This document shows, piece after piece, positions 21,301 through 37,125 of a stretch of 37,204 nucleotides of DNA. Each line of letters starts with the position of its first letter. Position 1 is the stretch's first letter. This stretch comes from Candidatus Methanomethylophilaceae archaeon. Lineage in GTDB: Archaea > Thermoplasmatota > Thermoplasmata > Methanomassiliicoccales > Methanomethylophilaceae. The DNA lies in contig SKGM01000069.1 of the NCBI GenBank assembly GCA_007117455.1, forward strand, positions 1 to 37,204, in the 5' to 3' direction. Position numbers and translations under genes: made by a program. A model generated the notes under the pieces. That model was not told the origin of the DNA. It made no database searches and saw nothing but the letters and a program-made list of their open reading frames with translations.

Positions 21301-24063
21301 GTGAAGGCGGACCAGAACCTCGAGGTCGAGGTCACAGGGTCCGTGGTCAGGGGCAGTGCATCGGTGGGTATCGAGGCGACAGGAGGTAAGGTCTCGATTA
21401 CCGACTCGTCGTTCGACGGCAACGGCGTCGCAATAGTACTGGATTCCGCCACCGAGGTCATTTTCATAGACAACCTGGTCCAGGACTCGCAAGGCGACGG
21501 TTTGGTCATGATGGGCTGCCAGGACATCCTGGTCCGGGGGAACGACTTCCATGACAACGGCGGATTCGCCATAAACGCCACCGCCTGCAGCGATATGGTG
21601 GCGGTATGGAACGCCTTCTTCAGCAACAACGGCGCGACCCTGGTCCGCCAGGAGGCGAATCTACAGTGCCATGATGACAACGACAACGTCTGGAACATGT
21701 CCCGCTTCCCCGGGTCCGGTGGTATGGAGGGCAACTATTGGAGCGATTGGCAGTCCCCGGACGACAACGAAGACGGCATCGTCGACATCCCTTACGAGAT
21801 GTCCGGAGGTGCCATCGATCACCATCCGCTGAAGGGTTTGGTGGACGATTACCCGCCCCATGTGGCCATCGAATCCCCCGTTGACGGTGACATGTTCTCT
21901 TACGACACCATCGAGCTGAGGTGGGAGGCGATGGACAACCGCAGCGGCATGTCCCAGGAGGATGTCAGGGTGCTTATCGATGGCCAGGAGGTATACAGCC
22001 TCCCTCACGGCACCGGATCATTGGACATCGACCCCCTGACCCTCGCTGAGGGTTGGCGTAACATAACCGTCTCGGTCCGGGACAACGACGGCAATGAGGG
22101 GAACGCAACCGTGACCATCCTCATAGACCGCACTCCGCCGGAGATCGTGGTGTTGCATCCTGGGGAGGATGAGGTCCTCCAGACACCGTTCGACCTGGTC
22201 TGGGAGACCACGGATGACCACGACCTGTCCCCGCGCTCGGACATATCCATCAACGGCGGCGATTGGATCGAGGACGTCAGCAGCCCTTACCAGATCGACG
22301 GCCTCATCGACGGGCGGCATGATGTGAGCATCCGTGCCGTGGACCACCTGGGCAACGAGAATGTGACCATCATATCGTTCATCGTGGACAACACCCCGCC
22401 GGTGGTGGAGATCATCGAACCGTCCACTGGAACCTACACCAACAGCAGCGAGGTACTGATCAGTTGGACCATTGAGGATGAGAACCCGGATCTCGAGGAG
22501 ATCTCAGTGGACGGCGTGGAGTGGTTCCTCGTCGAGGGTTCGACCACCTTCATCCTCTCCGATGGCGTCTACACCATCCATGTGCGCGCCACCGACCTCG
22601 CCGGCAATGTGAACCAATCCAACATCACAGTCACCGTGGACACCAGGCCGCCGGACCTGTCCATAGACTACCCTGACGACGGCGACTACCTGGACAGCGG
22701 TGACGTCCTCCTCGAGTTCGATGCCACGGACATCAATCTGGATATGGTGGAGGTATCCAGTGACGGTGATGTCTGGGTGGCCCCGGACCACGACGGTTCC
22801 CACCTCTTCGGAGATCTAGCGGACGGGGAGCACACCCTATACCTCCGGGCCGTGGACCTTGCCGGTAATGTGAATGTGACATCCATCACCGTGGTGGTCG
22901 ACACCGAGGACCCGGAGTTATCGATCCACTCGCCGGATGACGGATATCATTCCAATTCCTCGTCGGTCCTGGTGGAATGGACCGCAATCGATGCATCGCC
23001 CATGGTGGAGGAGGTGTCTACGGATGGTTCCTCATGGGCGGTGGCCATGGAGGAAGGACGACACGTATTCGAACTGGCTGAGGACGAGCATCGTCTCTGG
23101 GTCCGGGTGACCGACGCCGCCGGTAACGTCAACGTGACCAGCATCAACGTCACCGTCGACCTCACTCCCCCGGAGGTGTCGATCACATCGCCGGAGGACG
23201 GTATTTACAATTCCACCGGTTCCGTGACGCTGGTCTGGGAGGTCATCGAACTGAATGACTGGACCGCCGAGGTGTCGGTGGATGGCGGGGACTGGATGCC
23301 ACTCGGCCAGACCTTTGGGCATGAGCTCACCGGACTCCCGGAGGGGGAGTTGTCCTTTATGGTGCGGGTGACCGACCTCGCCGGGAACCAGGGTCATGAC
23401 TCCATAACGGTGCATGTGGACCTCACCGACCCTATAATAAGCATCACCAGCCATGAGGACGGGGACTTGATCCCTGAGGACCAACTGACATTGGAGTGGG
23501 AGGTCATCGACGACTCACCGGTCACCATTAACGTCTCCTATGACGGCGACCTGTGGCTGGAGTCGGGTCCCGACGGATATACGTTCACCGATCTGGATGA
23601 GGGCGTCAACGTCCTTTTGGTCCGGGCCATCGATGCCGCTGGTAACGTTAATGTGACAACAATCAGCGTCACGGTAGACACCGAAGAACCGCAGCTGACG
23701 ATCACACACCCGGAACAGGGATACTCCAGCGATACGGACAGCATCACCGTGGAATGGGATGCCTTCGACGAATCACCGTTCACAGCAGAGATATCCTACG
23801 ACGGTGAAACCTGGGAGGATGCTGACGACCTGTTGTCCCACACCTTCCAACTTCAAGAGGGAGAGAACACGCTGTGGGTCAAGGTCACCGATGCAGCGGG
23901 ATGGACGAACATCAGCGATGTGACTGTCAATTACAACACCCCCAATCCCACTGTGGCTTCAGGTTCCGATACCTCTGACGACCAGGCATATGCCGTGGCG
24001 GCGGCGGGCGCGCTCGGTCTGGGTGGAGGGTACATACTCCTCCGGAGCCGTCGTCCTCTGTGA
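12328..24063 (+). CDS. Giant surface protein: Ig-like, about 2800-residue parallel beta-helix (NosD/PbH1), Ig-like, C-terminal membrane anchor
   Basis: This 3911-aa protein (roughly 410 kDa) begins with a signal peptide (AILAVVICILLLPFLAPVF), then four Ig-like domains (about 30-370). Residues about 375-3170 form a very long parallel beta-helix built of short coils that often contain GNDLR, GNDLS or DNDCR. It is closed by a NosD-type cap (EGNYWSDWQSPDDNEDGI). Eight Ig-like domains of about 85-88 residues follow, most ending in a DLAGN/DAAGN motif and a VDT-type strand. The protein ends in a hydrophobic helix (AYAVAAAGALGLGGGYILL) with a basic RSRRPL end. It should stand out from the cell surface as a fibre. 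Adhesion or carbohydrate binding are plausible roles; no catalytic motif was recognised. GAGGTGA at 12318-12324 supports the start and coupling to the peptidase gene. Confidence 0.88.
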   Translation: MPSSRAILAVVICILLLPFLAPVFEATPLPPHLRINAPQQGDFVSGDLVIDFTSSDFSDHRVELRVDGQLRNASISSPHTISGLEDGSRIVTLTAINSHGLQNQRSVHVNMDSTAPVIDIHSPLEGNVYERSLDLNWTLDEENPLRTEYRIDDGDWLLIEGNTTLQLQEDGPFTIQMRSLDEAGNIGTQEVNFTVDTGMPAVRFISPDRNSYHNTPDLTVNWTAFNYDALSFSLDGGGWQVADDDGVELLGLDNGRHTITLRAENSTTSSTASRTLPFYIDDVSPVVHIISPLTGMRHGSSTAMLIWDVVSDSPFTTDIAIDVEGQWVNHTEVEGTSLRLKGLPAGTANLNLTVNDAAGNSMWADVSFETGVKGLPMGALSISNEDSLRNIAATLDLPGNGSATNPWVLDNIGIDAQGADRAVSISHTSKHLVLNNLSLFNTRIIDGLPQGTAVLLRDVKNIEITGVIAQDNLYGVRSVSMADQVSIIGNDLRNSHRGAVTIEQAHGLTISGNDLRDAGRWAVNVGWDLTETRDVNVTDNDCRGHQRYGIALERVVDGEVSNNAVTTTAGHETVGIYLFNSVTRTTIADNDCRHNFQGILSRGGAFDNVIRDNDCRNNTHGIEIADRSEENLITGNDCRENPYGIFLYDAYRNNVSLNHCYQTDSSQGVGIRIEGGEENKIWNNNASNNLNGIEVIHSNDNNVSMNDCSQTNNSQGVGVYVRGGIGNDIWNNNASHNHIGIYLHFASSQNVIANDCSFAGKHAIFVNYSLWRHTIAHNDCRHATEDALRMDLNDIDSSAHIHSNNITANDLRHNGGSAINITGGANSSFFNNQIQGNDCRNSTYDLINIFAGNYSYSGFRDNILTDAPMRTINLSSSDLDFHFFRSIQIIGNLMSNSSTDGFRLHGNLSSISIIGNKADNASHDGINITDSRSGMRDVVIDGNDVSDPGGDGIFLRSNMTMEGGSVSSNLVQRVPGNPIQVLSTTLTDFNIDDNIADDHPGVPALVVTALSLQEVSISGNDLRDCGAGLILEDRDFLNVTISGNDLRGCPGTLIAITSTSEAYGLHVDGNDLRRVGGQGIRVDVNGLRNSTFNSNDLTLLVDEPLSIVTPYVRYVSVDMNICPGAADNGIDIQTSSVYDLSISGNDLSGSLGDALRLHTVSADILNISSNDLSGASRDGVSVTTDGDMNHTRLQDNDVRDIGRDAMTLTAGGDIHVCWVEDNLMESAEMTLTLRAERVLWLSVERNEMRDANVRPILLDTDHLDSIYIRDNDARNSLGPGVEMNGTFVQDIWVLYNDLSQSSDTPVRISSGNDLVGIMVEGNNVSGASDHAVVVTTSSDIRDLSITGNTALGNLMERMIVSCDGLTNATVSNNTAPGAAMGALHIDCRVIDGLRVEGNILHSSGTNGLRLDPDTLSDAIIKDNQLQDAVGDSIRISVGGAMQDLIIDGNDLSGSGGDGMVLQADGILRMTIHGNDVRNSVGDPVIITSDSLNDVNISSNLCPDARGTPVILTVLSIGNLSMVSNDLSGSGSHGVVVQSPTIWDVRVIDNDISDSAGDAVRIISDGTLERITIEGNHAPRSAGDGIMIQGPSLIDIVVRGNNLHQAGGDAVRLMSDGDVSDLTVEDNVCTMAVRDGIHLTIGSGSLSESLISKNDMTDVGRYPIHIDAGQLRDTTIIENHCQDATLPLLILTDEVLRLRIEGNDLSGSGGEALRLEATIDTLWVIGNDMSDSQDDSLHIIALGEMVDVTVLNNTISSSDGNGIRIDAGSLLRLDIGNNTVSASHHPIWLSADSSRSMTITENRLTDAVSQPLRLEIPILEEGSIDGNDLSRSVSGILISTQMIEGLTISYNNLTDCGGGIGVNADVSITTLLISDNILEGVPGMAISVHCDESITALDILGNRGGTDGIIITSAMLEHGNISGNDLNGDLNVDVTGSLVLEGVDSNVLSGGMVLNAAHAILLSVQDNIALDIEVGTSGSMRLDQLSGNQFPSGVNLSSGADCTVGSMASNSLGPTLISAASVHISSFNDNNISSPAIGVEVQGGDVTILDMSQNLIQECHDLAFKVVGDDVYLERFQGNELAGGSPTGLLWVEADDVSLRMEENLMSVASVDDAVRIVSDTSLDAHLEDNTLLGAVNLSAPSCLVTLIHNDIGGPVHMTGSQVGLPKVEDNIMDSMHVEASTEIDSDLFRGNTMGGLTMLSDGDIAISVLSDNTLTGHMMLSAGGDLAIGEMAENNLASVHLDASRDLSLDLMEFNGLNTNDRRAMEIEAGRDVDMGTVYANVFSTTAALPSLTISSEGLRIGSMEDNHLITSYDVAMHIDVSEDLEVQSLRSNVLIGSLSLEVGDDAALPEISANTMTHLNLQAGTASLNLTDNILTGDVVISVQGSLVMEVMTGNQLMGMLSEASTIGFGVVNGNTLTGDMELQAGSGITIDGISANSMADLTANSSTISVGDVSGNVLVGNMTLTGEAGVTTGDLEGNELRSLRILDDVSIDVRSIVDNIFQDVDGAAIMLQAETVVLGGLQDNQLVSGSPTHLLLIEGDVVTVEDVSSNSVTVPTSSDAVRMVSSGGLTVGAVSSNSLQGGMVLIGGNDLVCGELIANTLTEIHMEAGGVSTGDVHSNNLDGRLTVISSEGMSIPSIRNNDLRGLDLSATVSLMVSEIDSNRFHAVTGDTISIQSSEVSIPLIIGNQVESGVPDRFLHIQCGSFGSSDVSGNTMDAASIEEAVRISATVSVDIGIFSGNTLNGILNITAPSVVLDSWEGNELQGMEIDSTSTVIGDMADNTLGHVSIVTTEGCSIGAVEGNTMDSLQIHAADLTIGVLRDNGLAGRIELISSHLDMGEGVLGNDFGDGIEIMSTSAEALRFQGNLIGSTGHGIHVDISDGSSIHSQDNQLTAVGDGLRLITDGIMTLVSSNDNITAGLKALNLEAHVAEVTITNLTVPSSADGVKVQATAITIHVQESHLNADGAGVHLIGPSVLRLSDSILEAEDRGVKADQNLEVEVTGSVVRGSASVGIEATGGKVSITDSSFDGNGVAIVLDSATEVIFIDNLVQDSQGDGLVMMGCQDILVRGNDFHDNGGFAINATACSDMVAVWNAFFSNNGATLVRQEANLQCHDDNDNVWNMSRFPGSGGMEGNYWSDWQSPDDNEDGIVDIPYEMSGGAIDHHPLKGLVDDYPPHVAIESPVDGDMFSYDTIELRWEAMDNRSGMSQEDVRVLIDGQEVYSLPHGTGSLDIDPLTLAEGWRNITVSVRDNDGNEGNATVTILIDRTPPEIVVLHPGEDEVLQTPFDLVWETTDDHDLSPRSDISINGGDWIEDVSSPYQIDGLIDGRHDVSIRAVDHLGNENVTIISFIVDNTPPVVEIIEPSTGTYTNSSEVLISWTIEDENPDLEEISVDGVEWFLVEGSTTFILSDGVYTIHVRATDLAGNVNQSNITVTVDTRPPDLSIDYPDDGDYLDSGDVLLEFDATDINLDMVEVSSDGDVWVAPDHDGSHLFGDLADGEHTLYLRAVDLAGNVNVTSITVVVDTEDPELSIHSPDDGYHSNSSSVLVEWTAIDASPMVEEVSTDGSSWAVAMEEGRHVFELAEDEHRLWVRVTDAAGNVNVTSINVTVDLTPPEVSITSPEDGIYNSTGSVTLVWEVIELNDWTAEVSVDGGDWMPLGQTFGHELTGLPEGELSFMVRVTDLAGNQGHDSITVHVDLTDPIISITSHEDGDLIPEDQLTLEWEVIDDSPVTINVSYDGDLWLESGPDGYTFTDLDEGVNVLLVRAIDAAGNVNVTTISVTVDTEEPQLTITHPEQGYSSDTDSITVEWDAFDESPFTAEISYDGETWEDADDLLSHTFQLQEGENTLWVKVTDAAGWTNISDVTVNYNTPNPTVASGSDTSDDQAYAVAAAGALGLGGGYILLRSRRPL
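13780..17830 (+). repeat. Beta-helix coil repeats with GND(L/C)(R/S) motif
   Basis: Within the giant surface gene the coding sequence for GNDLR, GNDLS and NDCR recurs dozens of times, commonly 66-75 nt apart (22-25 codons), often as the near-identical string GGCAACGACCTC. Each unit corresponds to one turn of the beta-helix. The asparagine would stack into a ladder along the helix turn. Confidence 0.75.
21850..23940 (+). repeat. Eight tandem Ig-like domain repeats
   Basis: Eight units of about 255-290 nt encode domains that start with PP or DP, then a strand ending in SP-DG, a central W, and finish with DLAGN or DAAGN plus VTVDT. They are diverged at DNA level, so this is an old tandem expansion. 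They form the stalk between the beta-helix and the membrane anchor. Confidence 0.8.
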
Positions 24064-24150: not shown

Positions 24151-24954
24151 ATGCCGATGAGGGCCGCACTCTATCTCCGGGTGTCCACCGAGGACCAGGC
24201 CCGGGAGGGATTCTCGCTGGACGCCCAGCGCAAGCGCCTTTCCGCCTACTGCAAGGCCAGAGGATGGGAGGTCGCCGGGGTCTACGTGGACGAGGGTCAT
24301 TCCGGCCGCAGCACCAGAAGGCCGCAGTACCAACGGATGCTGGAGGAGCGTGGGGACTGGGACCTCATACTGGTGTTGAAGATGGACCGCATACACCGCA
24401 ACTCCATGAACTTCACCCTCATGATGAACTCCCTGAGGGCATGGGGCAAGGAGTTCAACTCCATGCAGGAGAGCTTCGACACCACCACCGCCATGGGGCG
24501 TTTCGTGATGGATATCATGCAGCGCATCGCCCAACTGGAGAGTGAGCAGATCGGTGAGCGGGTGAGAGTGGGCATGGACCGGAAGGCCAGACATGGAAAG
24601 GGCATGTTGGGTTGCGGCCATCCTTATGGTTACGACGTCACCCCCGAAGGCCTGGTGGTGAACGAGGAGGAGGCCGATGTGGTGCGTTCCATTTACCGCC
24701 TGCGTTCCGAGGGGAGGTCGCTGCAGGCCATCGCCGATCATCTGAACTCCTTGGGGATAAGGGCGAAGAAGGGAGGACCGTGGAGGAGACAGACTGTTTC
24801 CCGCATCCTTAAGAACCCGCTGTACTGCGGTTGTCTACGTTGGGCTGATGTGCTCAGGGTGGATCATCTTCCCCCGATAATAAACAGGGATGATTTCTCA
24901 CGTCTCCAAGGTATCTCAGGCATTTCGATCCCGGAGGCGGATGTGGATGCTTGA
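24151..24954 (+). CDS. Compact serine recombinase (resolvase/invertase superfamily)
   Basis: This 267-aa protein has an N-terminal serine-recombinase catalytic domain: YLRVSTEDQA with the nucleophile Ser12 and Arg10, SGRSTRRP with conserved arginines, LVLKMDRIHRN with Asp79/Arg80/Arg83, then the long helix AQLESEQIGERV. A 'recombinase' DNA-binding domain follows (RRQTVSRILKNPLYCG). It stops soon after, without the zinc-ribbon and coiled-coil region of full large serine integrases (usually 450-600 aa). It cuts and rejoins DNA through a Ser-DNA link. There is no ribosome-binding sequence; TATA spacing suggests a leaderless start at 24151, though the ATG at 24157 aligns with the paralogue at 30326. 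It follows the giant surface gene directly. Confidence 0.9.
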   Translation: MPMRAALYLRVSTEDQAREGFSLDAQRKRLSAYCKARGWEVAGVYVDEGHSGRSTRRPQYQRMLEERGDWDLILVLKMDRIHRNSMNFTLMMNSLRAWGKEFNSMQESFDTTTAMGRFVMDIMQRIAQLESEQIGERVRVGMDRKARHGKGMLGCGHPYGYDVTPEGLVVNEEEADVVRSIYRLRSEGRSLQAIADHLNSLGIRAKKGGPWRRQTVSRILKNPLYCGCLRWADVLRVDHLPPIINRDDFSRLQGISGISIPEADVDA

Positions 24955-25678: not shown

Positions 25679-25679
25679 T

Positions 25680-25719
25680 TGATAATATCATTATATACCC
25701 CAATAACGAATGATATCAT
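25680..25719 (+). promoter_or_regulatory. Promoter with two dyads, leaderless start for PKD surface protein
   Basis: TTATATAC (25691-25698) is a good TATA box about 26 nt before the ATG at 25721, implying a leaderless transcript. It is flanked by two palindromes: TGATA-A-TATCA (25680-25690) at the TFB-contact position, and ATGATATCAT (25710-25719) right at the expected start site. The paired TGATA/TATCA sites look like operators for one regulator. Confidence 0.5.
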
Positions 25720-25720
25720 C

Positions 25721-28700
25721 ATGGGGAAATTCATGGGGTCATCACTTAAACTTATTTCAGCAACCATAGCCTTGGTTCTGCTGGTGCCGTTGTTCGCCAC
25801 CGTAATTTTGTTACCCTTCGGCTCTCAGGCCGAATCTGGTTCCATGGATTGGAATGAAGGTGACGGTTTCGGCGCTGGAATCGAATTCGATGTTCTACAC
25901 CTGTATTATGCATACAGCGATGAGATCATCGACATGATCATGGACACCATCAGCGAACAGTCCCAAGGTCAGGCTGAGTTGAATGACTTCAGTATAACGA
26001 AGGGCACCATCAATGCCTATGCCATGACCGGAGTCACGAAGGTGACCGATGACGAGGTGACCATTGAACAAAGTGGCGGTCTGGAGGTGCATCTCAAGAT
26101 AAATGCCAAGACCACCGTTTATGACCTCCCCAAGGAAGGGGTCTACACCCCCGAACATGACTTCACTGAAGAGGATTATGAGGACATGGTGACCATATCA
26201 TACTTCGAGGTCATCATCGGACTGGCTCAGAAATTCTCCGTGACATTCGACAAGGAATCCATGGATGTCAAGGAGGTCTCTTCCACCCAACTTCTATCAT
26301 TGTCCATGGAGGCTGATTTCAGCAAGCTACCTTTCGTGGAATTCGATGAAGACATGGAGGTCAGCTATGGAAATATGAACCTCCTCTTCACATACGACTA
26401 CAATCAGACCCTTTCTCTGGGCTTCATCCCCTCCCTGAGCATACCCGATCTGGAAAATGGAATTGAACAGGGTTTCGGCTCTGAAATCGAAGGAATGGTC
26501 ATAGACCTCTCTTTCGAGGGGGAGGTAGACCTGCAGATAACCGGTGACCATAGGGCCGTCAATGAGCTGAACATGGGGATAGATCTGATTTTCCAGGGCA
26601 TAGCTGAGGATATGCCCGATGCCGAAGGACTCGATGGTTTCCCGATCAAATTACACGAGATATACATTCCCGCAGAATACCTCCCTGAACCTGGTCCGTC
26701 ACCGGTCGATATGATACTGTTCGATGTGCCGGAACTCACCATCCCCGTGGAGTTGTTCGAGATACCTCTGGAAATCCCCTGGACGATATCGGATGGTGAG
26801 GAGACCGACCTGCTCGTCATACATGGTCTCCGGACTGAGAACTCCACCATGTATTGGCTGTGGCTGGAGGATGTGCCTGTGCCCGGGTTGTTCGACATAC
26901 CTCTGTCCCAGGTGTTCACTGACTTCCATCCCGATGTCGATGATTTCTACATCGGCGGGATACCGATAATCCCCGACCTTGCGGACCCCCTGATGTGGGA
27001 GGAGCTCATGGAGGAGCCCATGGATATGATGGAGGAACTCATCGTCACCATGGTCTATGATATGACCGGAGGGGCCGTAGAGATAACCAGGCCCATAGAT
27101 TACGAATCGATGGACATGGAGGATGTGATGTACGTCCTGAGGGCCATCGTCTCGAGCATCCTGATCATTTCCGATGATGATGATGATATTTCGGACACCG
27201 TGCCTCCGGTTGCCGATGCCGGATCGGACAAATCTGTTGTTGAGGGCGCCACCATCAACTTCGACGGCTCCGCATCCACCGATAACGTGGGCATCGTGAA
27301 TTACACTTGGACCTTCACCTACGATGATCAATCCATCACCCTCTATGGCGTCTCTCCGAGCTTCAAGTTCGAGATTCCCGGTGCATATGAGGTCACACTT
27401 ACCGTGAAGGACGCCGCCGGTAACTCGGACACCGATACCCTTATCATAACAGTTGAGGAGGCTCCTGATACCGAGCCCCCGGTGGCCGATGCCGGGAAGA
27501 ACCGAACTGTTAAACTCAACGCCTTGGTGACCTTCGACGGCCGGAAGTCCACTGATAATGTGGGTATCGTATCCTATCATTGGTCGATTCTCTCCCCTGA
27601 GGGTCATGAGATTCACACATCGAACCAACCGTTGTTCTCCTACCGCTTCACCGCCGGTGGCACCCACACTGCGATACTGACTGTCGAGGATGCTGCCGGC
27701 AACAGCGACAGCGCCACGGTGACGGTGTTCGTGGACGATCTTGACACCACTGACCCAAGGGCGCGTGCCGGTTCCGATGTCAACATCGGATTGGGCGGAT
27801 TGGTGGTGTTCGACGGCTTCGCCTCCTGGGATGATGTCGGTATAGACAACTACACCTGGACCTTCAACTATGACGGTCAGGACCGTGAGTTGTACGGAGT
27901 ATCACCGGTCTTCCGCTTCTCTGCGGTCGGTTCGTACGAAGTGACCCTCACCGTGAGGGACGCCGCCGGCAACTGGGACCAGGACACCATGACCGTGACC
28001 GTGGAAGGGGACACCGTACCGCCAATAGCCCGCGCCGGCCCTGACCGCACCGTTGACGAAAGAGACTGGGTGGTCTTCGACGGCTCCAGGTCCTGGGACA
28101 ACGTCGCCGTGACTGGTTATGAGTGGACCATAAGTCATAACACCGACCCAGGGTTCGATGATGTAACTCTGGATGGTATGATAGTCATGTACCGATTCAC
28201 CGACCCCGGTGAATATACCGTTGCACTCAACGTGACCGATGCCGCCGGTAATTGGGACGTTGTGTCTTTGACTGTCACAGTTGTTTCAACCGGTGACATC
28301 ACGCCGCCTATAGCGTCCATAACACATTCGATACATGGGAAGATAGTGGTGTTCGATGGGATAGCATCATGGGATGATGTGGGAATCGTGAACTACACCT
28401 GGAACATCAGTAGCGGGGGCGATGTGATCAAGACCCTGTATGGCGAAGCGGTCTTCCATATGTTCACCGAGGCCGGTGTATATGAAGTGACCCTAACCGT
28501 GAGAGACGACGCCGGTAACGAGGGTAGCGAGACGGTCACCGTGGAGATAACATCCGCCTCTCCCACTGTAAGGATGCTTGGCGGACTCACTGCAAGTGCC
28601 GTGGTGAATGAGGATGTGAACAAGGGGACGGTGCAGGCACTCGACGGTAGCGGTTCAACCGGTGCCAGCAGCTACACGTGGACCATAAGCCACAACACCG

Positions 28701-30262
28701 ATCCTGGGTTCGATGATGTGGTGTTGGATGGAGAGGTCGCCATATACCGTTTCAACGTCAGCGGTGAGTACACAGTAACGCTCAACGTCAGTGACAACGG
28801 AAACTTCGCTGAGGATGTGGTCACCGTGACCGTGCATCCCGAGGACAACATCCCACCCATATCCCGCCCCGGCAGTGACGGGGAGGTCGATGTGGGAACC
28901 GCCGTCGCTTTCGATGGCTCCCGCTCTTGGGACAACGTTGCCGTCACCGGATACAACTGGACCATCCTCCTTGACGATGAGGTGGTGCATGTGCATGACG
29001 GCGTCACATTCACCTACCGCTTCGATGTCGATGGCATATACACCGTGGCATTGAACGTCAGCGACGCCGCCGGCAACTACCACAACCGTTCGCTCACCAT
29101 GACCGTCAACCCCGATGACAACGTCGACCCGGTGGCGGTCATGGCATCGTTGCCGGATGTGGACATGGGTGCCTTGGTGGTACTGGACGGCTCCGCCTCC
29201 TATGACAACGTGGCCGTAACCGGCTACGAGTGGACGATCACCAAGGATCACGTGGTGGTCGCCACCCTCAGCGGTGAGACTACATCCTATCGCTTCAACG
29301 TACCCGGCGAGTATACCGTCACGCTCAACGTGACCGATGCAGCAGGCAACTGGAACGAGACCTCCCTGCAGATGACCGTGTCCGCCCTGGACACCACGCC
29401 ACCGATCGCTGACGCCGGTGACGACGCTGAGATCCGGCAGGATCAGGTGTTCGTGTTCGATGGCTCTCGGTCCTGGGACAACGTCGCCGTGACCAACTAC
29501 ACCTGGACCTTCACCTACGACGGTCAGACTGTGACCCTCTACGGGGAGACGCCGATCCATACATTCCAGGAGCCTGGCGTATACGTGGTCACCCTGACGG
29601 CCAAGGATGCCGAGGATAACCAGGATGAGGACACCGTGACCATAACCGTTCTGGAGAACTGGGCGCCGACCATCGAGTCCGATGCGCCCACCGGTCCGGT
29701 GGGCGATGACGAGTTCATAGTCGGATGGTCCATCGTGCACGCCATGGAGGCCAACGAGACGGTCACCTGGTCCTTCAGCACCAATGCCTCCTTCATACAG
29801 TACTCCGCCGCCAACGGAACATTCTGGGGTACCCCCGATGAGGTGGGTTCCTACCACGTGACGGTCACCGCAACATCCGTCGACGGAACCCTTGAGACCC
29901 AAGTGACGTACCACATCAACGTCACCGCCCGCGTCCTGGTCACCGGAACGGTCATGGACTCATCCGACCTAGCGGTCGCCGGAGCGACCATAAGCGTGGA
30001 CGGAGTGGAGGTCGCCGTGTCCGGAGAGGATGGCAACTACTCGTTCCTCATAGAGCCCGGCACCTACACCCTGCAGGCCACCAAGGAGGGCCACTCGTTC
30101 AAGAGCAGCACCCTGACGGCCACCACCGGCTCGGTAGCGGTGACGGAGATCACCGAGGACCTTGCGGAGGATGACGACGATGACATGACCATGTACATCG
30201 GCGCCGCCGCAGCGGTGGTCGTGATCCTCGCATTGCTGCTGGTGATCAAGAGGAGGTTCTGA
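25721..30262 (+). CDS. PKD-repeat surface protein with unknown N-terminal domain and C-terminal membrane anchor
   Basis: This 1513-aa protein has a signal peptide or anchor (SSLKLISATIALVLLVPLFATVILL). About 450 residues (40-485) follow that I do not recognise: acidic, cysteine-free, beta-strand rich, ending in ISDDDDDIS. Then come nine PKD domains (about 493-1310; FDGSxSxDN, YxWT and DAAGN motifs), a further Ig-like domain, a carboxypeptidase-regulatory-like domain (VTGTVMDSSDLAVAGATI) near 1403-1475, an acidic linker, a membrane helix (MYIGAAAAVVVILALLLVI) and the end KRRF. PKD domains usually form extended extracellular stalks or bind polymers. The start at 25721 is chosen from the TATA spacing; the frame is open to a TTG at 25679 that overlaps the promoter. 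A recombinase gene follows 63 nt later. Confidence 0.85.
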   Translation: MGKFMGSSLKLISATIALVLLVPLFATVILLPFGSQAESGSMDWNEGDGFGAGIEFDVLHLYYAYSDEIIDMIMDTISEQSQGQAELNDFSITKGTINAYAMTGVTKVTDDEVTIEQSGGLEVHLKINAKTTVYDLPKEGVYTPEHDFTEEDYEDMVTISYFEVIIGLAQKFSVTFDKESMDVKEVSSTQLLSLSMEADFSKLPFVEFDEDMEVSYGNMNLLFTYDYNQTLSLGFIPSLSIPDLENGIEQGFGSEIEGMVIDLSFEGEVDLQITGDHRAVNELNMGIDLIFQGIAEDMPDAEGLDGFPIKLHEIYIPAEYLPEPGPSPVDMILFDVPELTIPVELFEIPLEIPWTISDGEETDLLVIHGLRTENSTMYWLWLEDVPVPGLFDIPLSQVFTDFHPDVDDFYIGGIPIIPDLADPLMWEELMEEPMDMMEELIVTMVYDMTGGAVEITRPIDYESMDMEDVMYVLRAIVSSILIISDDDDDISDTVPPVADAGSDKSVVEGATINFDGSASTDNVGIVNYTWTFTYDDQSITLYGVSPSFKFEIPGAYEVTLTVKDAAGNSDTDTLIITVEEAPDTEPPVADAGKNRTVKLNALVTFDGRKSTDNVGIVSYHWSILSPEGHEIHTSNQPLFSYRFTAGGTHTAILTVEDAAGNSDSATVTVFVDDLDTTDPRARAGSDVNIGLGGLVVFDGFASWDDVGIDNYTWTFNYDGQDRELYGVSPVFRFSAVGSYEVTLTVRDAAGNWDQDTMTVTVEGDTVPPIARAGPDRTVDERDWVVFDGSRSWDNVAVTGYEWTISHNTDPGFDDVTLDGMIVMYRFTDPGEYTVALNVTDAAGNWDVVSLTVTVVSTGDITPPIASITHSIHGKIVVFDGIASWDDVGIVNYTWNISSGGDVIKTLYGEAVFHMFTEAGVYEVTLTVRDDAGNEGSETVTVEITSASPTVRMLGGLTASAVVNEDVNKGTVQALDGSGSTGASSYTWTISHNTDPGFDDVVLDGEVAIYRFNVSGEYTVTLNVSDNGNFAEDVVTVTVHPEDNIPPISRPGSDGEVDVGTAVAFDGSRSWDNVAVTGYNWTILLDDEVVHVHDGVTFTYRFDVDGIYTVALNVSDAAGNYHNRSLTMTVNPDDNVDPVAVMASLPDVDMGALVVLDGSASYDNVAVTGYEWTITKDHVVVATLSGETTSYRFNVPGEYTVTLNVTDAAGNWNETSLQMTVSALDTTPPIADAGDDAEIRQDQVFVFDGSRSWDNVAVTNYTWTFTYDGQTVTLYGETPIHTFQEPGVYVVTLTAKDAEDNQDEDTVTITVLENWAPTIESDAPTGPVGDDEFIVGWSIVHAMEANETVTWSFSTNASFIQYSAANGTFWGTPDEVGSYHVTVTATSVDGTLETQVTYHINVTARVLVTGTVMDSSDLAVAGATISVDGVEVAVSGEDGNYSFLIEPGTYTLQATKEGHSFKSSTLTATTGSVAVTEITEDLAEDDDDDMTMYIGAAAAVVVILALLLVIKRRF
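27200..29655 (+). repeat. Nine tandem PKD domain repeats
   Basis: Nine units of about 260-285 nt. Some share near-identical DNA: 28089-28113 equals 29469-29493 over 25 nt, and 28126-28175 matches 28681-28730 over most positions, including a shared insertion (SHNTDPGFDDV). This points to recent duplication or gene conversion within the array. Confidence 0.75.
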
Positions 30263-30325: not shown

Positions 30326-31243
30326 ATGAGGGCCGCTCTCTACATCCGCGTATCCACCGAGGACCAGGCAAGAGAGGGATACTCCCTGGCAGCCCAAGAG
30401 GAGATGTTGCGTGCCTACTGCGATGCCCAGGATTGGGAGGTCGCCGACATCTATGCGGACGATGGATATTCCGGACGGAGCACCAATCGACCCGAATACC
30501 GTCGGATGATCGAGGAACGTGACCGATGGGACTGCGTCCTGGTCCTGAAGATGGATCGTATACACCGTAACTCCAAGAACTTCATGGCCATGATGGAGGA
30601 CCTCGGGTCATGGGATAAGACGTTCTCTTCCTCCACCGAGTCCTTGGACACCTCCAACGCCCTGGGCAGGTTCGTTATGGATATGATACAGAGGATCGGC
30701 CAATTGGAGAGTGAGCAGATTGGCGAGCGGACCTACATGGGCATGAGGGAGAAGGCCGAATCCGCCCGTGGGATCCTCGGGTTCCGGGTGCCTTACGGAT
30801 ACCGACTGGATAACGGCATACTCATCCCGGATGAGGAGGAGGCTCCCAATGTGCAATGGATGTTCTCATCCTATCTGGAAGGTTCAAGTCTATCATCATT
30901 GGCTTACGCTTTGAACAATCATAAGGACCTCAGCACCAGAAAGGGTAATCCCTGGACCGTCCACAACGTCCGCTCCATACTCCATAATCCGGTGTATGTC
31001 GGTCATTTGCGTTGGGAGGGCATGATCATACCATCCGACCACCGGCAATTGGTGAGTCAAGAGGTCTTCAATCAAGTTCAGGAGATGATGGCATCCCGTG
31101 CACGGAACCCGGCTCAGAGACGATTTCTCAGATTACCGGATGAACTCTCATCATCCATTGATATGGAAGGCCTGATGAGGGCCTATGAAGGAAAAAGAAG
31201 GCCGTCCAAGGATTTGAAGGTGAAAGCCGAATATAAAGAATGA
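30326..31243 (+). CDS. Compact serine recombinase, paralogue of the one at 24151
   Basis: This 305-aa serine recombinase has the motifs YIRVSTEDQA (Ser10), SGRSTNRP, LVLKMDRIHRN (Asp77/Arg78/Arg81) and GQLESEQIGERT, then a recombinase domain (TVHNVRSILHNPVYVG). It shares these blocks almost unchanged with the protein at 24151 but diverges strongly in the DNA-binding half, so the two probably recognise different sites. Its C-terminus is about 40 residues longer (SRARNPAQRR to KAEYKE) yet still has no cysteine-rich zinc ribbon. It follows the PKD surface gene by 63 nt, just as its paralogue follows the giant surface gene. Site-specific inversion, integration or deletion are all possible; the target is not identifiable. 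Confidence 0.9.
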   Translation: MRAALYIRVSTEDQAREGYSLAAQEEMLRAYCDAQDWEVADIYADDGYSGRSTNRPEYRRMIEERDRWDCVLVLKMDRIHRNSKNFMAMMEDLGSWDKTFSSSTESLDTSNALGRFVMDMIQRIGQLESEQIGERTYMGMREKAESARGILGFRVPYGYRLDNGILIPDEEEAPNVQWMFSSYLEGSSLSSLAYALNNHKDLSTRKGNPWTVHNVRSILHNPVYVGHLRWEGMIIPSDHRQLVSQEVFNQVQEMMASRARNPAQRRFLRLPDELSSSIDMEGLMRAYEGKRRPSKDLKVKAEYKE

Positions 31244-32264: not shown

Positions 32265-33581
32265 ATGATGAAAAAGAGGACCACATCGACTGTTGAGATG
32301 GAGGGGCTTCTGGGGGCAGATGTGCAGATACTCGATATCCGCCCGATAGAGTCTTACAATGGTTGGCCACTCAATGGAGAGGATAGAGGAGGCCACATAC
32401 CTGGGGCAAGATCCGTTCCGATCAAATGGTTCGATTACATTGATCTGAACGACATCCTTGAAGCCAAAGGACTGGTCAGGGATTCGAAGACCGTGATATA
32501 CGGTTACGACTCAGAACATTGCAGTAAGGCCTTCGATCTCTTAGAGCGCATGGGATTCCAGGATCTTAGCGTGTACGAAGACTTCTTCCAGGAATGGATT
32601 CCCGATCCGGATAAACCATTGCAGACACTCGCCAGATATGAGTGCGCTGTCCCTGCCTCGTGGTTGAAGGAGGCCATCGAAGAACCGAAGGGCAAAGGTC
32701 TCGGAGATGACGGTCTGGTGGTCTGCCATTGTCACTACAGAAATTTTGATGATTACATTCTGGGCCATATCCCTGGAGCCATTGATATGGACACCAACTC
32801 ACTAGAATCAACTGAGACCTGGAACCGAAGGACGCCGGAGGAGTTGTCCGAAGTACTGAAAAGTAAGGGTATAACGTCAGAGACCACCGTTGTGGTCTAT
32901 GGCCGTTTCTCACATCCGCGTAACGAAGACCCCTTCCCTGGCAGCAGCGAGGGCCAGCTGGGGGCGATGCGTTGCGCCTTCATACTACTCTACGCCGGCG
33001 TCAAGGATGTCAGAGTCCTGAACGGAGGTCTCCAATCCTGGCTGGATGCTGGCTACCCATTGTCTAAGGAAGAATCCAAATCTATTCCGGCGGATGGTTT
33101 CGGCACTGATATACCTGCGAGGCCGGATATCGTCGTGGACACTGAAGAGGCTAAAAGGATACTTTCAGCGGAGGATGCCAACCTGGTCTGCGTTCGCAGC
33201 TGGCCGGAGCTTATAGGAAAGGTGAGCGGTTACAACTACATCGAGAAGAAGGGACGCATCCCCGGTGCGGTATTCGGGAATTGCGGTAGTGACGCCTACC
33301 ATATGGAGAATTACCGGAACCTCGACCACACTGGGAGGGAATATCATGAGATAGAGAGGATGTGGGAAGAGATCGGGGTGACGCCTGAAAGGTTTAACGC
33401 GTTCTACTGCGGTACCGGTTGGAGGGGATCGGAAGCATTCTTCAACGCATATCTAATGGGTTGGCCGAGGATAGCCGTCTATGATGGAGGGTGGTTCGAG
33501 TGGAGCAGTGATGATTCCAACCCCTATGAGACGGGAGTGCCGGAAGGTATGATGATAAGCGGGAGGATATATGGACTTTGA
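32265..33581 (+). CDS. eanB: Three-domain rhodanese, probable hercynine sulfurtransferase (EanB-like)
   Basis: This 438-aa cytoplasmic protein has three rhodanese-type domains (about 1-118, 125-270, 285-430). Only the third has a complete active loop, YCGTGWRGSE with Cys382; the equivalent positions in the first and second read VIYGYD and VVYGRF without the cysteine. In the Chlorobium limicola anaerobic ergothioneine enzyme EanB, Cys412 carries a persulfide and inserts sulfur into the imidazole of hercynine; from memory, that loop has the same CGTGWR form. A Tyr323 here matches Tyr353 there with the same offset of 30. The gene overlaps an EgtD/EanA-type methyltransferase by 11 nt and is followed by sufS and sufE. 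GGAGAAAGGA lies before the ATG; ATG at 32268 is also possible. A generic thiosulfate sulfurtransferase is the alternative. Confidence 0.8.
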   Translation: MMKKRTTSTVEMEGLLGADVQILDIRPIESYNGWPLNGEDRGGHIPGARSVPIKWFDYIDLNDILEAKGLVRDSKTVIYGYDSEHCSKAFDLLERMGFQDLSVYEDFFQEWIPDPDKPLQTLARYECAVPASWLKEAIEEPKGKGLGDDGLVVCHCHYRNFDDYILGHIPGAIDMDTNSLESTETWNRRTPEELSEVLKSKGITSETTVVVYGRFSHPRNEDPFPGSSEGQLGAMRCAFILLYAGVKDVRVLNGGLQSWLDAGYPLSKEESKSIPADGFGTDIPARPDIVVDTEEAKRILSAEDANLVCVRSWPELIGKVSGYNYIEKKGRIPGAVFGNCGSDAYHMENYRNLDHTGREYHEIERMWEEIGVTPERFNAFYCGTGWRGSEAFFNAYLMGWPRIAVYDGGWFEWSSDDSNPYETGVPEGMMISGRIYGL

Positions 33582-34572
33582 TAACAGCACCATCCGATAC
33601 AATGAGAGATTGGAGGTCAAGAATTATCTACCCGAGATGGGAAAAGACCAGTTGGCGGAGAAGATATGGTACGGTCTTCAGTCGACACCTAAGAGCATCC
33701 CTTCGATGTTCTTCTATGATACCGAGGGGTCGAAGATATATGAGAGGATAACCGAGCTTCCCGAGTATTATCCGCCACAGGTTGAGAAGTCCCTCATACC
33801 ATTTGCAGCAGACGCACTGGCGCAACATCTTGTGGGGTCCGATGTGATCGAGTTGGGTAGCGGCGACTGCTCCAAGATCTCGATCTTCCTGGACCATGTG
33901 CCGACCGAGACCCTGCAGGGCCTCAGGTACATACCCGTGGATTTCAGCCTCTCGGCCATCGTTGACTCTGCATACTGTCTACAATCCAGATATTCGGACA
34001 TCGATATCATGGGAGTGGTCGGTGATTTCCTCAGCCACCTGTCCTTCCTTCCTAATGACAAACGCAAACTATTCATCTTCTTCGGAAGCACGATAGGCAA
34101 TCTGGAAAGGCATGATGCACTTTCATTCTGTGAACAGTTGGCCCAATCCATGTCTCCCGATGACCTTTTCCTGATGGGGTTCGACATGGTCAAGGATCGT
34201 GACGTTTTGAATAAGGCTTACAATGATGGTGAAGGGGTCACCGCGGAGTTCAACAGGAACATAATCAATGTCGTCAACTCCCTACTCGGAACCGATCTCG
34301 ATCCCATGGCTTTCGAACACGTCGCCTTTTTCAACGAGAGTGAATCCCGCATAGAGATGCACCTTAAGGCACTGAACGACTTGGTAACCATCACTTCGGA
34401 TGGAAAGAGACTTCAAATCGAAGAGGGTGAGATGATACACACCGAGAATTCATACAAGTTCACACTGGATGGTATGAAAGACATGGTGGAGGACAGCGGC
34501 CTGATGCTGGAAAGGGTATTCAGTGATGACAAGGGCTGGTTCTCGTTAGGCATCTTCAGGAAGAAGAGGTAG
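33571..34572 (+). CDS. eanA: L-histidine N-alpha-methyltransferase (EgtD/EanA family)
   Basis: This 333-aa SAM-dependent enzyme should trimethylate histidine to hercynine, the first step of ergothioneine synthesis. Visible EgtD-family blocks are MFFYDTEGSKIYERITELPEYYPP (split here by me at FYDTEGS and LPEYYPP), the SAM loop IELGSGDCSK, YIPVDFS, FFGSTIGNLE, and KAYNDGEGVTAEFNRN. Near the C-terminus is HTENSYKF, with Glu292 and Ser294 matching the Glu and Ser that bind the histidine substrate in mycobacterial EgtD. The length agrees with the family (about 320-330). GGGAGG at 33561-33566 precedes the ATG, which lies inside the end of eanB. No EgtB or OvoA-type iron oxygenase is present nearby, which favours the anaerobic route. 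Confidence 0.9.
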   Translation: MDFDNSTIRYNERLEVKNYLPEMGKDQLAEKIWYGLQSTPKSIPSMFFYDTEGSKIYERITELPEYYPPQVEKSLIPFAADALAQHLVGSDVIELGSGDCSKISIFLDHVPTETLQGLRYIPVDFSLSAIVDSAYCLQSRYSDIDIMGVVGDFLSHLSFLPNDKRKLFIFFGSTIGNLERHDALSFCEQLAQSMSPDDLFLMGFDMVKDRDVLNKAYNDGEGVTAEFNRNIINVVNSLLGTDLDPMAFEHVAFFNESESRIEMHLKALNDLVTITSDGKRLQIEEGEMIHTENSYKFTLDGMKDMVEDSGLMLERVFSDDKGWFSLGIFRKKR

Positions 34573-34578
34573 ACCCGG

Positions 34579-35793
34579 ATGCTGGATGTGGATAGGGTCA
34601 GGGCGGATTTTCCCATATTGGGGACAAAGGTCAACGGCCGTTCTTTGGTCTATTTCGACAATTCCGCCACTGCCCAGAAGCCCGTTCAGGTCATGGATGC
34701 GGTGAGGGAGGCCTATATGGTCCACAACAGCAACATCCATCGCGGTGTCCATCATCTCAGTGATGTGATGAGCGGATTGTACGAGGATGCTCGGAACAAG
34801 GTAGCGAAATTCATCAACGCCCGTGAGGAGGAGGTGTTGTTCACTGCCGGCACGACCCAAGGAATCAACATGCTGGCCGCCTGCCTCGCTGAATCAGAGA
34901 TCGGGAAAGGGGATGTGGTGTTGCTATCAGAGATGGAACACCACTCCAACATAATACCCTGGCAGATGGCCTGTGCAAAGGTCGGTGCCAGCATAAGGGT
35001 CCTGCCCATCAAGGACGATGGGTCCATATCGATTGATGGCCTGAGCGATATCTTGGATGAAAAGGTCAAACTCCTGGCAATCAGTCAGGTCTCCAATGTA
35101 TTAGGGATGGTGAATCCCATCAAAAAGATAACCCAGGCCTGTCATGAGAATGGTACCCTTGTGATGGTTGACGGCGCCCAGTCCGTGCCTCATCTCAAGA
35201 CCGATGTCAAGGAGCTGGATTGTGATTTCCTGGTTTTCAGTGGCCACAAGCTCCATGCAGAGACCGGGATCGGCGTACTATTCGGTAAGAAGGATCTATT
35301 GGAAGAACTGCCTCCCACACAAGGTGGGGGAGGGATGGTCGATAAGGTCACCATGACCTCCTCCACCTACGCTGAGGTACCGCAGCGCTTCGAATCCGGA
35401 ACACCGAATTACGTGGGGGCCATAAGTCTGGCGGCAGCCATCGATTACATGATGTCCCTGGGCATGGACGATATAATCGAGCATGAGAAGGTTCTGAACG
35501 GGGAGATGATGCGGAGCCTGGGTCGCATCGAGGGCGTTACAGTTTATGGCGACGGAGCTGAGAGATGCCCGATATACTCCTTCAACATCCGAGGCCTCCA
35601 CCCGTATGACATCGGTCAGATACTGGATAAGATGGGTATTGCCGTAAGGACCGGTAACCATTGCGCCCAGCCCCTGATGGCCCGATTGGGTATAAGCGGG
35701 ACCGTGCGGGCAAGCCTGTCATTCTACAACACCGTGGAGGAGATATCTGACTTCATCGACGGTTTGGAGAAAGCCGTCAGCATATTGGAGTGA
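34579..35793 (+). CDS. sufS: SufS-type (group II) cysteine desulfurase
   Basis: This 404-aa pyridoxal-phosphate enzyme converts cysteine to alanine and holds the sulfur as a persulfide. The PLP lysine is in FSGHKLHAETGIG (Lys224, after His223), the cofactor-stacking histidine is in EMEHHSN, and the catalytic cysteine is in RTGNHCAQPLM (Cys362), the short-loop arrangement typical of group II enzymes that need a SufE/SufU partner. It starts 6 nt after the eanA stop, with AGAGGT overlapping that stop, and overlaps the sufE-like gene by 4 nt. No SufB, C, D or IscU scaffold gene lies beside it, so the sulfur is probably destined for the neighbouring rhodanese rather than only for Fe-S clusters. 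That last point is inference. Confidence 0.93.
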   Translation: MLDVDRVRADFPILGTKVNGRSLVYFDNSATAQKPVQVMDAVREAYMVHNSNIHRGVHHLSDVMSGLYEDARNKVAKFINAREEEVLFTAGTTQGINMLAACLAESEIGKGDVVLLSEMEHHSNIIPWQMACAKVGASIRVLPIKDDGSISIDGLSDILDEKVKLLAISQVSNVLGMVNPIKKITQACHENGTLVMVDGAQSVPHLKTDVKELDCDFLVFSGHKLHAETGIGVLFGKKDLLEELPPTQGGGGMVDKVTMTSSTYAEVPQRFESGTPNYVGAISLAAAIDYMMSLGMDDIIEHEKVLNGEMMRSLGRIEGVTVYGDGAERCPIYSFNIRGLHPYDIGQILDKMGIAVRTGNHCAQPLMARLGISGTVRASLSFYNTVEEISDFIDGLEKAVSILE

Positions 35794-36215
35794 TCAACCT
35801 GAACATAGCTGACATCGATCGGAATATAACTGAGGAGTTCTCAAAGGCTAGCGACTGGTTCGAACTCTATGAGATGATCATCGCATCCGGTAAGGCAATC
35901 CAAGGCCTAGCCGATGAGGATAGGACAGAAGAGAACGCGGTGCCTGGTTGTCAGTCCAATGTATGGTTGAAGACCGGACTCGAGGATGGAAGGATGATGA
36001 TAACAGCCGATAGCGACGCATCGATAACCCGCGGCATCCTCTCCTTGGTACTGAGGGTCTTGGATGGTCAGAGGCCACAGGACATCCTTGACGCAGAATT
36101 GCGATTTCTGGATGACATCGGACTCAGGACCAACCTCTCACCCTCCAGAAGCGATGGTCTCAATTCGATAATCCATCGTATCAAGGAATCCGCAAGGATG
36201 ATGATTGAGACCTGA
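35790..36215 (+). CDS. sufE: SufE-family sulfur acceptor protein
   Basis: This 141-aa protein matches SufE/CsdE in length and layout: FSKASDWFELYEMII near the start, the acceptor-cysteine loop VPGCQSNVWL (Cys54), then ITADSDASITRGILSLVL and FLDDIGLRTNLSPSRSDG. SufE takes persulfide sulfur from SufS and passes it on. The start is taken as GTG at 35790, overlapping the sufS stop (GTGA), because no ATG exists before residue 28. SufE proteins are much commoner in bacteria than archaea, so the sufSE pair may have been acquired. It is the last gene of the ean-suf unit, and a hairpin-forming sequence follows. Confidence 0.88.
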   Translation: MINLNIADIDRNITEEFSKASDWFELYEMIIASGKAIQGLADEDRTEENAVPGCQSNVWLKTGLEDGRMMITADSDASITRGILSLVLRVLDGQRPQDILDAELRFLDDIGLRTNLSPSRSDGLNSIIHRIKESARMMIET

Positions 36216-36375: not shown

Positions 36376-37125
36376 ATGATGAGGGATCTTTCTGAAAGTA
36401 TAGCTTCTTCGATGGGTTGTAGTGAGGATGCGTTACCATATCTCGATTACATACTCCAGGACCTCAGAACCTTGGGCAGCAATCCCGACATCATCCTGAA
36501 TACGATAAAGGAATTTTTTGCCAACCCCTCTGAACTACGACTGTTGGATGTCGGATGTGGAAAGGGATCATGCACGGTCGAAGCAGCTAAGGAGGGTATC
36601 GATTGTGTTGGGATCGACGCCATGGAGCCATTCATCGATGAAGCAAGGTCAAACGCTTCAGTATCAGGTGTGATGGGGAAATGTGAATTCATACAGGGAG
36701 ATGCTGGAACCGTATTGAAGACTCTAGGGTCATTCGATGTCGTTCTTCTAGGTTCAGTCGGTCCCATACTCGGGGAATTGGAAGATTCCTTGAATATGAT
36801 CAGGGGCCATGTAAGGGATGACGGCATCTTGATATTGGATGAGGGCAGGGTCGTCGATATTCAGGAGATCATGGATATTTCAGAAAGATGTGGTTTTACT
36901 TTGGTCAGAGAATGCCTGCATGATCCTTCTGGATTCCACTCAGAGTATGATGAGGAACTTACCAATATCGAGAAGAGGTGCCAAGAGCTGATAAGAGAAC
37001 TCCCTCATAAAGCAAATGTATTCTTGAATTATCTAGAATCCCAGAAGGAGGAGTATGAATTTTTGAAGACCTCCTTCATCAATTCGACCATGGTTTTCAA
37101 ACCAACGAGGAAAGAATGCGTATAA
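36376..37125 (+). CDS. Class I SAM-dependent methyltransferase, substrate unknown
   Basis: This 249-aa protein has a Rossmann-type methyltransferase core: LLDVGCGKGSCTVEAA (motif I, about residues 55-70), the acidic GIDAMEPF after the second strand, FIQGDAGTV, and FDVVLLGSVGPIL for motif II. After the core comes a helical, charged C-terminal part (YDEELTNIEKRCQELIREL). An N-terminal helical segment (SSMGCSEDALPYLDYILQDL) precedes it. No substrate motif was recognised. It is separated from the ean-suf cluster by 160 nt of AT-rich DNA, so it is probably transcribed on its own. No clear ribosome-binding sequence precedes the start; ATG at 36379 is an equal alternative. Confidence 0.75.
   Translation: MMRDLSESIASSMGCSEDALPYLDYILQDLRTLGSNPDIILNTIKEFFANPSELRLLDVGCGKGSCTVEAAKEGIDCVGIDAMEPFIDEARSNASVSGVMGKCEFIQGDAGTVLKTLGSFDVVLLGSVGPILGELEDSLNMIRGHVRDDGILILDEGRVVDIQEIMDISERCGFTLVRECLHDPSGFHSEYDEELTNIEKRCQELIRELPHKANVFLNYLESQKEEYEFLKTSFINSTMVFKPTRKECV

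Follow-up and report, generated by a model that had tools for sequence, protein, structure and literature searches.

The question raised by this locus is where a methanogen would obtain the sulfur for making the antioxidant ergothioneine without oxygen. Within the window, that is, the whole stretch of 37,204 nucleotides analyzed here, four genes follow one another on the + strand: eanB for a three-domain rhodanese-type hercynine sulfurtransferase (32265..33581, 438 aa), eanA for a SAM-dependent histidine N-alpha-methyltransferase of the EgtD family (33571..34572, 333 aa), sufS for a group II cysteine desulfurase (34579..35793, 404 aa), and sufE for a sulfur-acceptor/carrier protein (35790..36215, 141 aa). 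The initial annotation had read these as one tightly packed cluster for anaerobic ergothioneine synthesis, and all four ORFs are in place with the spacing it gave: eanB and eanA overlap by 11 nt, eanA and sufS are separated by 6 nt, and sufS and sufE overlap by 4 nt. The genes are not chance neighbors, since dozens of unrelated genomes have them in the same order. The reading preferred here, with a probability of roughly 0.78, is that they make up a single operon that would synthesize ergothioneine, the predicted product, without oxygen and that brings a sulfur supply of its own.

The presence of such a pathway in an archaeon was part of the earlier claim, and the cluster is indeed present; as a novelty this part falls away, as EanA and EanB are already published from anaerobic bacteria and from archaea, including methanogens (PMC9103826, PMC7278568, PMC11993508). 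Ergothioneine itself had yet to be detected in archaea as of PMC7278568. The apparently new element is the sulfur end, with SufE tied to one EanB branch, which appears unreported within the literature searched: no link between EanB and SufE was found there, the primary EanB papers lying outside that search, and none of the papers naming both "ergothioneine" and "SufE" was about EanB as judged by title and abstract.

Source genome and surroundings of the cluster

The genome is a metagenome-assembled genome (MAG) of 1.14 Mb in 70 contigs and is 68% complete, so absences from it carry little weight. Its relatives are methanogens, McrA being found in 19 of the 21 genomes searched as relatives, and the host is a methanogen of the Methanomassiliicoccales type. 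Searches for tRNAs and Rfam families gave no match anywhere in the window.

Upstream of the cluster, an ORF of 3911 aa (12328-24063) has long repeats of the type NDxxxNxxxGI that look parallel-beta-helix-like by eye, as well as a C-terminal hydrophobic stretch, and is adjoined by very large surface-type ORFs at 7325-12319 and 25679-30262. Serine-recombinase genes of the resolvase/recombinase type lie on both sides of the latter, at 24151-24954 (assigned by eye) and 30326-31243, and this pairing may reflect DNA inversion or mobility. Downstream, a gene for a SAM-dependent methyltransferase (36376-37125) lies 160 nt past sufE; L019 and L020, the two nearest relatives, are the only loci in which a close homologue comes after the cluster.

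Identity of the four proteins

The first protein had been described as a three-domain rhodanese with a CGTGWR loop, and three Pfam rhodanese stretches and the loop CGTGWRG are found in it. In a phmmer comparison it scores 554 bits against Chlorobium limicola EanB (6ktv), 294 bits against YnjE, and at most 78 bits against two-domain sulfurtransferases, with 55% identity to the crystallized C. limicola enzyme. Comparison of predicted structures, which had been proposed along with the initial annotation, agrees: the AlphaFold model (pLDDT 86.5) finds only EanB at Foldseek PDB ranks 1-14, with TMq of 0.89-0.91, followed by YnjE, so that the protein is nearest to EanB by fold as well as by sequence. 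An ordinary thiosulfate or mercaptopyruvate sulfurtransferase, named beforehand as the competing identity, is thus rejected (at most 78 bits vs 554), and so is a YnjE orthologue, for which both the bit score and the TM-score are below those of EanB. By sequence and model the rhodanese is EanB, with catalysis predicted.

The catalytic residues point the same way. The numbering is shifted throughout by 30 relative to EanB, so that C382, Y323, T384, and R387 correspond to EanB C412, Y353, T414, and R417, and all four are invariant in 84 of 84 sequences. The codon of the catalytic Cys382 is at 33408..33410 (+) and that of Tyr323, the counterpart of the proton shuttle (PMC10903977), is at 33231..33233 (+); the roles of Cys412, Tyr353, Thr414, and Arg417 have been described for EanB (PMC10903977, PMC9103826). 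The fold of the model matches EanB-hercynine complexes, residues 341-354 being of low confidence, so that the hercynine pocket and its tunnel are putative. Elsewhere, a natural EanB-EanA fusion of 749 aa is encoded in a Bacteroidales MAG (L087:6922-9171).

For EanA, the match to TIGR03438 (egtD) reaches 320.7 bits, over a cut-off of 290.9, and that to PF10017 reaches 323 bits. Its assignment as an EgtD-type methyltransferase with a Glu/Ser pair also holds in alignment, where its TENS matches TEVS of mycobacterial EgtD, including the EgtD crystal sequences; this pair is presumably the one that binds the imidazole. The protein passes the curated cut-off for the L-histidine N-alpha-methyltransferase family, and action on histidine is predicted from its sequence. 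SufS, already recognized as a group II cysteine desulfurase, scores 539.1 bits against TIGR01979 (cut-off 475.1), and its PLP lysine (Lys224) and persulfide cysteine (Cys362) are kept in 20 of 20 linked SufS. The last protein is likewise the SufE it was taken for: it scores 136.7 bits against PF02657 (cut-off 27), its model (pLDDT 94.4) has Salmonella and Escherichia coli SufE as the best PDB matches (TMq 0.84-0.85), and the acceptor Cys54 is kept in 27 of 27 linked SufE.

Linkage of SufE to one branch of EanB

When each species was represented by one genome, 421 EanB relatives were recovered, of which the best 80, nearest to the window EanB, were kept; the locus counts below describe these 80 and a few Thermoplasmatota loci, a subset of all EanB. 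In a tree built from 83 EanB sequences, sufE adjoins eanB in 27 evaluable loci and does not in 30, the other 26 loci being unscored because too little sequence is available 3', and the label changes only twice. In 26 of the 27 positive loci sufE shares the strand of eanB, and in the remaining one, L060, it is convergent. One EanB branch thus has sufE at each of its 26 same-strand loci that could be evaluated, usually with both eanA and sufS in between, and the other branch has 30 evaluable loci without it, a strict linkage of SufE to one branch; L060 is placed among the sequences of the other branch and may represent a second association that arose independently. The residues N178, R214, S228, L232, I299, and N378 separate SufE-linked from unlinked EanB. 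In a second tree, the EanB of C. limicola groups with SufE-less sequences; the deep forks of that tree have modest support (about 60-95) and the SufE-linked sequences do not form one clean clade.

A search for eanB-eanA-sufS-sufE synteny had been suggested for Thermoplasmatota, and the arrangement recurs far beyond that group. Titles of the sufE-positive loci come from archaea and many bacterial phyla, with the caution that some MAG titles may be misbinned (e.g., Nealsonbacteria for L020). The same-strand order is always eanB-(eanA)-(sufS)-sufE, with the exception of L049, in which eanA is 5' of eanB. Of the 26 same-strand loci, 18 have sufS and 6 gave no match to it; for eanA these figures are 17 and 8, the remaining loci ending too soon. 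Since six loci keep eanB and sufE with neither sufS nor eanA found within approximately 4.5 kb, SufE is the most constant partner of EanB.

A different neighbor was seen in about 21 loci, mostly in the SufE-less Bacteroidota branch but also in two Thermoplasmatota: a small protein of the DUF427 family (PF04248), in which a Cys-x-Trp-Lys-Gly motif is conserved, encoded near eanA or eanB. Examples are L089:5856-6137, L027:10656-10937, and L065:6346-6630(-), as well as L054, L051, L077, L057, L086, L050, L066, and L017. This protein is a possible second partner for EanB, as an alternative.

Co-occurrence of SufE and EanB in whole genomes

Among 186 genomes of Methanosarcinales, the order of Methanolobus, SufE is present in 29 of 29 genomes with EanB and in 1 of 157 without it; these are given as counts, with no probability attached, because the genomes are related. 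The lone genome with SufE and no EanB match, G536, has sufE-sufS-eanA with eanA cut by the contig end, and is therefore rejected as a true exception. At 26 further Methanosarcinales loci, the complete eanB-eanA-sufS-sufE cluster is present in all 24 that can be evaluated, mostly with 4-nt overlaps. One of the 24 has eanA apparently split into two ORFs (L170:1799-2761), the other three genes being intact.

In Thermoplasmatota, EanB is found in 5 of 390 genomes. SufE is above the cut-off in 124 genomes, all but four of which belong to the families f34 and f42. Each of the four others has EanB; in the fifth EanB genome, G193, the contig stops inside sufS. The f34 and f42 SufE that were sampled form a clade apart from the EanB-linked SufE, with a support of 100. 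All 12 genomes tested, two of which have records titled chromosomes, have no SufE other than the one beside eanB, while for the other EanB branch the single SufE is away from eanB in 5 of 5 genomes.

SufE is rare in methanogens and occurs mostly in Methanosarcinales, where it was reported for 10 of 132 genomes and discussed as part of Fe-S assembly (PMC8351635). As all 29 EanB-bearing Methanosarcinales have SufE, the cluster of G536 is cut, and the sole SufE is the one beside eanB in every genome tested for this, methanogen SufE is probably an ergothioneine gene, and its tie to EanB offers an explanation for its rarity.

Route of sulfur and alternative explanations

The identity of EanB by sequence, fold, and four catalytic residues, together with the EanA cut-off score, supports the earlier reading of an anaerobic ergothioneine cluster. 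In the proposed pathway, EanA would transfer three methyl groups from SAM to histidine, yielding hercynine, SufS would take the sulfur of cysteine onto Cys362 and pass it to Cys54 of SufE, SufE would charge EanB directly or as polysulfide released by SufE or SufS, and EanB would convert hercynine to ergothioneine. That SufS and SufE feed EanB had been proposed from the gene order, and supply of EanB by this pair is well supported by the linkage, with precedents in the interaction of IscS with YnjE (PMC8931425) and in the activity of EanB with IscS in vitro (PMC9103826); the manner of feeding has to stand against the published view of a polysulfide donor and a tunnel (PMC9103826). Gene linkage speaks for a shared function and is silent on the direction or route of sulfur. 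We infer ergothioneine as the product and SufE as the protein that hands sulfur to EanB, and direct transfer between the two, as against released polysulfide, is a further inference of the same kind.

In the alternative that survives best, although it is considered rather unlikely, SufS and SufE make sulfane sulfur and EanB takes up its sulfur from free polysulfide or some other small persulfide without contact with SufE, the operon serving to raise local polysulfide. For the C. limicola enzyme, polysulfide is the direct donor that works best, and Cys412 is at the end of a 13 Å tunnel, beyond the reach of a cysteine desulfurase, for which reason IscS, which drives EanB in vitro, was later reinterpreted as a source of polysulfide (PMC9103826). 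The window EanB retains the same fold and catalytic residues, as this alternative would have it. However, making polysulfide alone would need no carrier, sufE is kept by eanB even without sufS, and the SufE-less branch is the very one that holds the polysulfide-fed enzyme of C. limicola. A more specific form of the preferred reading, given an even chance, is that EanB comes in two kinds, of which one (C. limicola and Bacteroidota) would draw on free polysulfide and the other (methanogens and several bacterial phyla) would receive persulfide directly from a dedicated SufE, in which case methanogen SufE would be a gene of ergothioneine synthesis and not of Fe-S assembly. No experiments on any SufE-linked EanB were found in the literature searched.

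A single ancestral accident of gene order is a less likely origin of the linkage, which keeps some weight because transfer of the operon makes the loci non-independent; the strongest points against it are the retention of sufE without eanA or sufS nearby and the co-occurrence at the level of genomes. A product other than ergothioneine, such as a further methylated or selenium-containing relative made perhaps with the methyltransferase at 36376-37125, is very improbable: the two nearest relatives also have the gene close to the cluster, but apart from one weak match no other locus of the first set has it alongside, the residues of the hercynine route are kept in EanA and EanB, and EanB made no selenoneine in vitro (PMC9103826). 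An aerobic EgtB route was also looked for, and the genome, 68% complete, has no match to PF03781 (FGE-sulfatase).

Service of SufS and SufE in general Fe-S assembly with SufBC, beside eanAB by accident or shared regulation, is strongly disfavored and very improbable, for although SufBCD is the usual recipient of their sulfur (PMC12584684) and methanogen SufE was surveyed as a part of the SUF system (PMC8351635), the only SUFBD match of the genome is on contig C58 with no SufS or SufE match in the surrounding 8 kb, Methanosarcinales without EanB are also without SufE except for the contig-cut G536, and the eanB-sufE linkage recurs in many phyla. As the genome has its SUF scaffold gene elsewhere, and likewise a further two class V genes resembling cysteine desulfurases (contig C34), the SufS and SufE of the cluster need have no part in Fe-S assembly.

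Published answers on the natural sulfur donor of EanB have shifted, IscS having worked in vitro and polysulfide then being named as the direct source (PMC9103826), and a sole SufE tied to one branch is a concrete candidate. The eanB-eanA-sufS-sufE combination, common to many methanogens and bacteria, could settle the sulfur source of the pathway, and Methanolobus profundi and Methanosalsum natronophilum are culturable EanB hosts in which to seek ergothioneine.

Comparison with known systems

Several known systems share components with the cluster. YnjE, the three-domain rhodanese of E. coli, has the same architecture, is the nearest relative outside EanB, and interacts with IscS (PMC8931425), but it is not an ergothioneine synthase and scores 294 vs 554 bits. 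SufS-SufE of the SUF system and CsdA-CsdE belong to the same two families as the window pair, with the same active cysteines and SufE fold; a SUF Fe-S operon is rejected because the cluster has no SufB, SufC, or SufD scaffold genes, and the acceptor of the window pair is probably EanB. MES of Caldithrix abyssi also works without oxygen and is supplied by a dedicated, fused cysteine desulfurase (PMC9516567), but its sulfurtransferase is unrelated, whereas the window cluster has a separate SufS, SufE, and rhodanese; the metallopterin domain fused to the desulfurase in MES is absent, the 404-aa SufS having aminotransferase class V as its sole domain.

The closest counterparts are other EanA-EanB pairs. 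EanA and EanB of C. limicola (Clim_1148/1149) are the same enzymes, also adjoining, with the same catalytic residues and, at 55% identity, the same fold; the C. limicola EanB is from the branch without an adjoining SufE, while the archaeal cluster described here has both sufS and sufE. For Methanococcoides vulcani and Methanohalophilus mahii, eanA-eanB has likewise been reported (PMC7278568, PMC11993508). The portions consulted of the published accounts of archaeal pairs make no mention of SufS-SufE, which in the present analysis accompany EanA and EanB in 24 of 24 evaluable Methanosarcinales loci.
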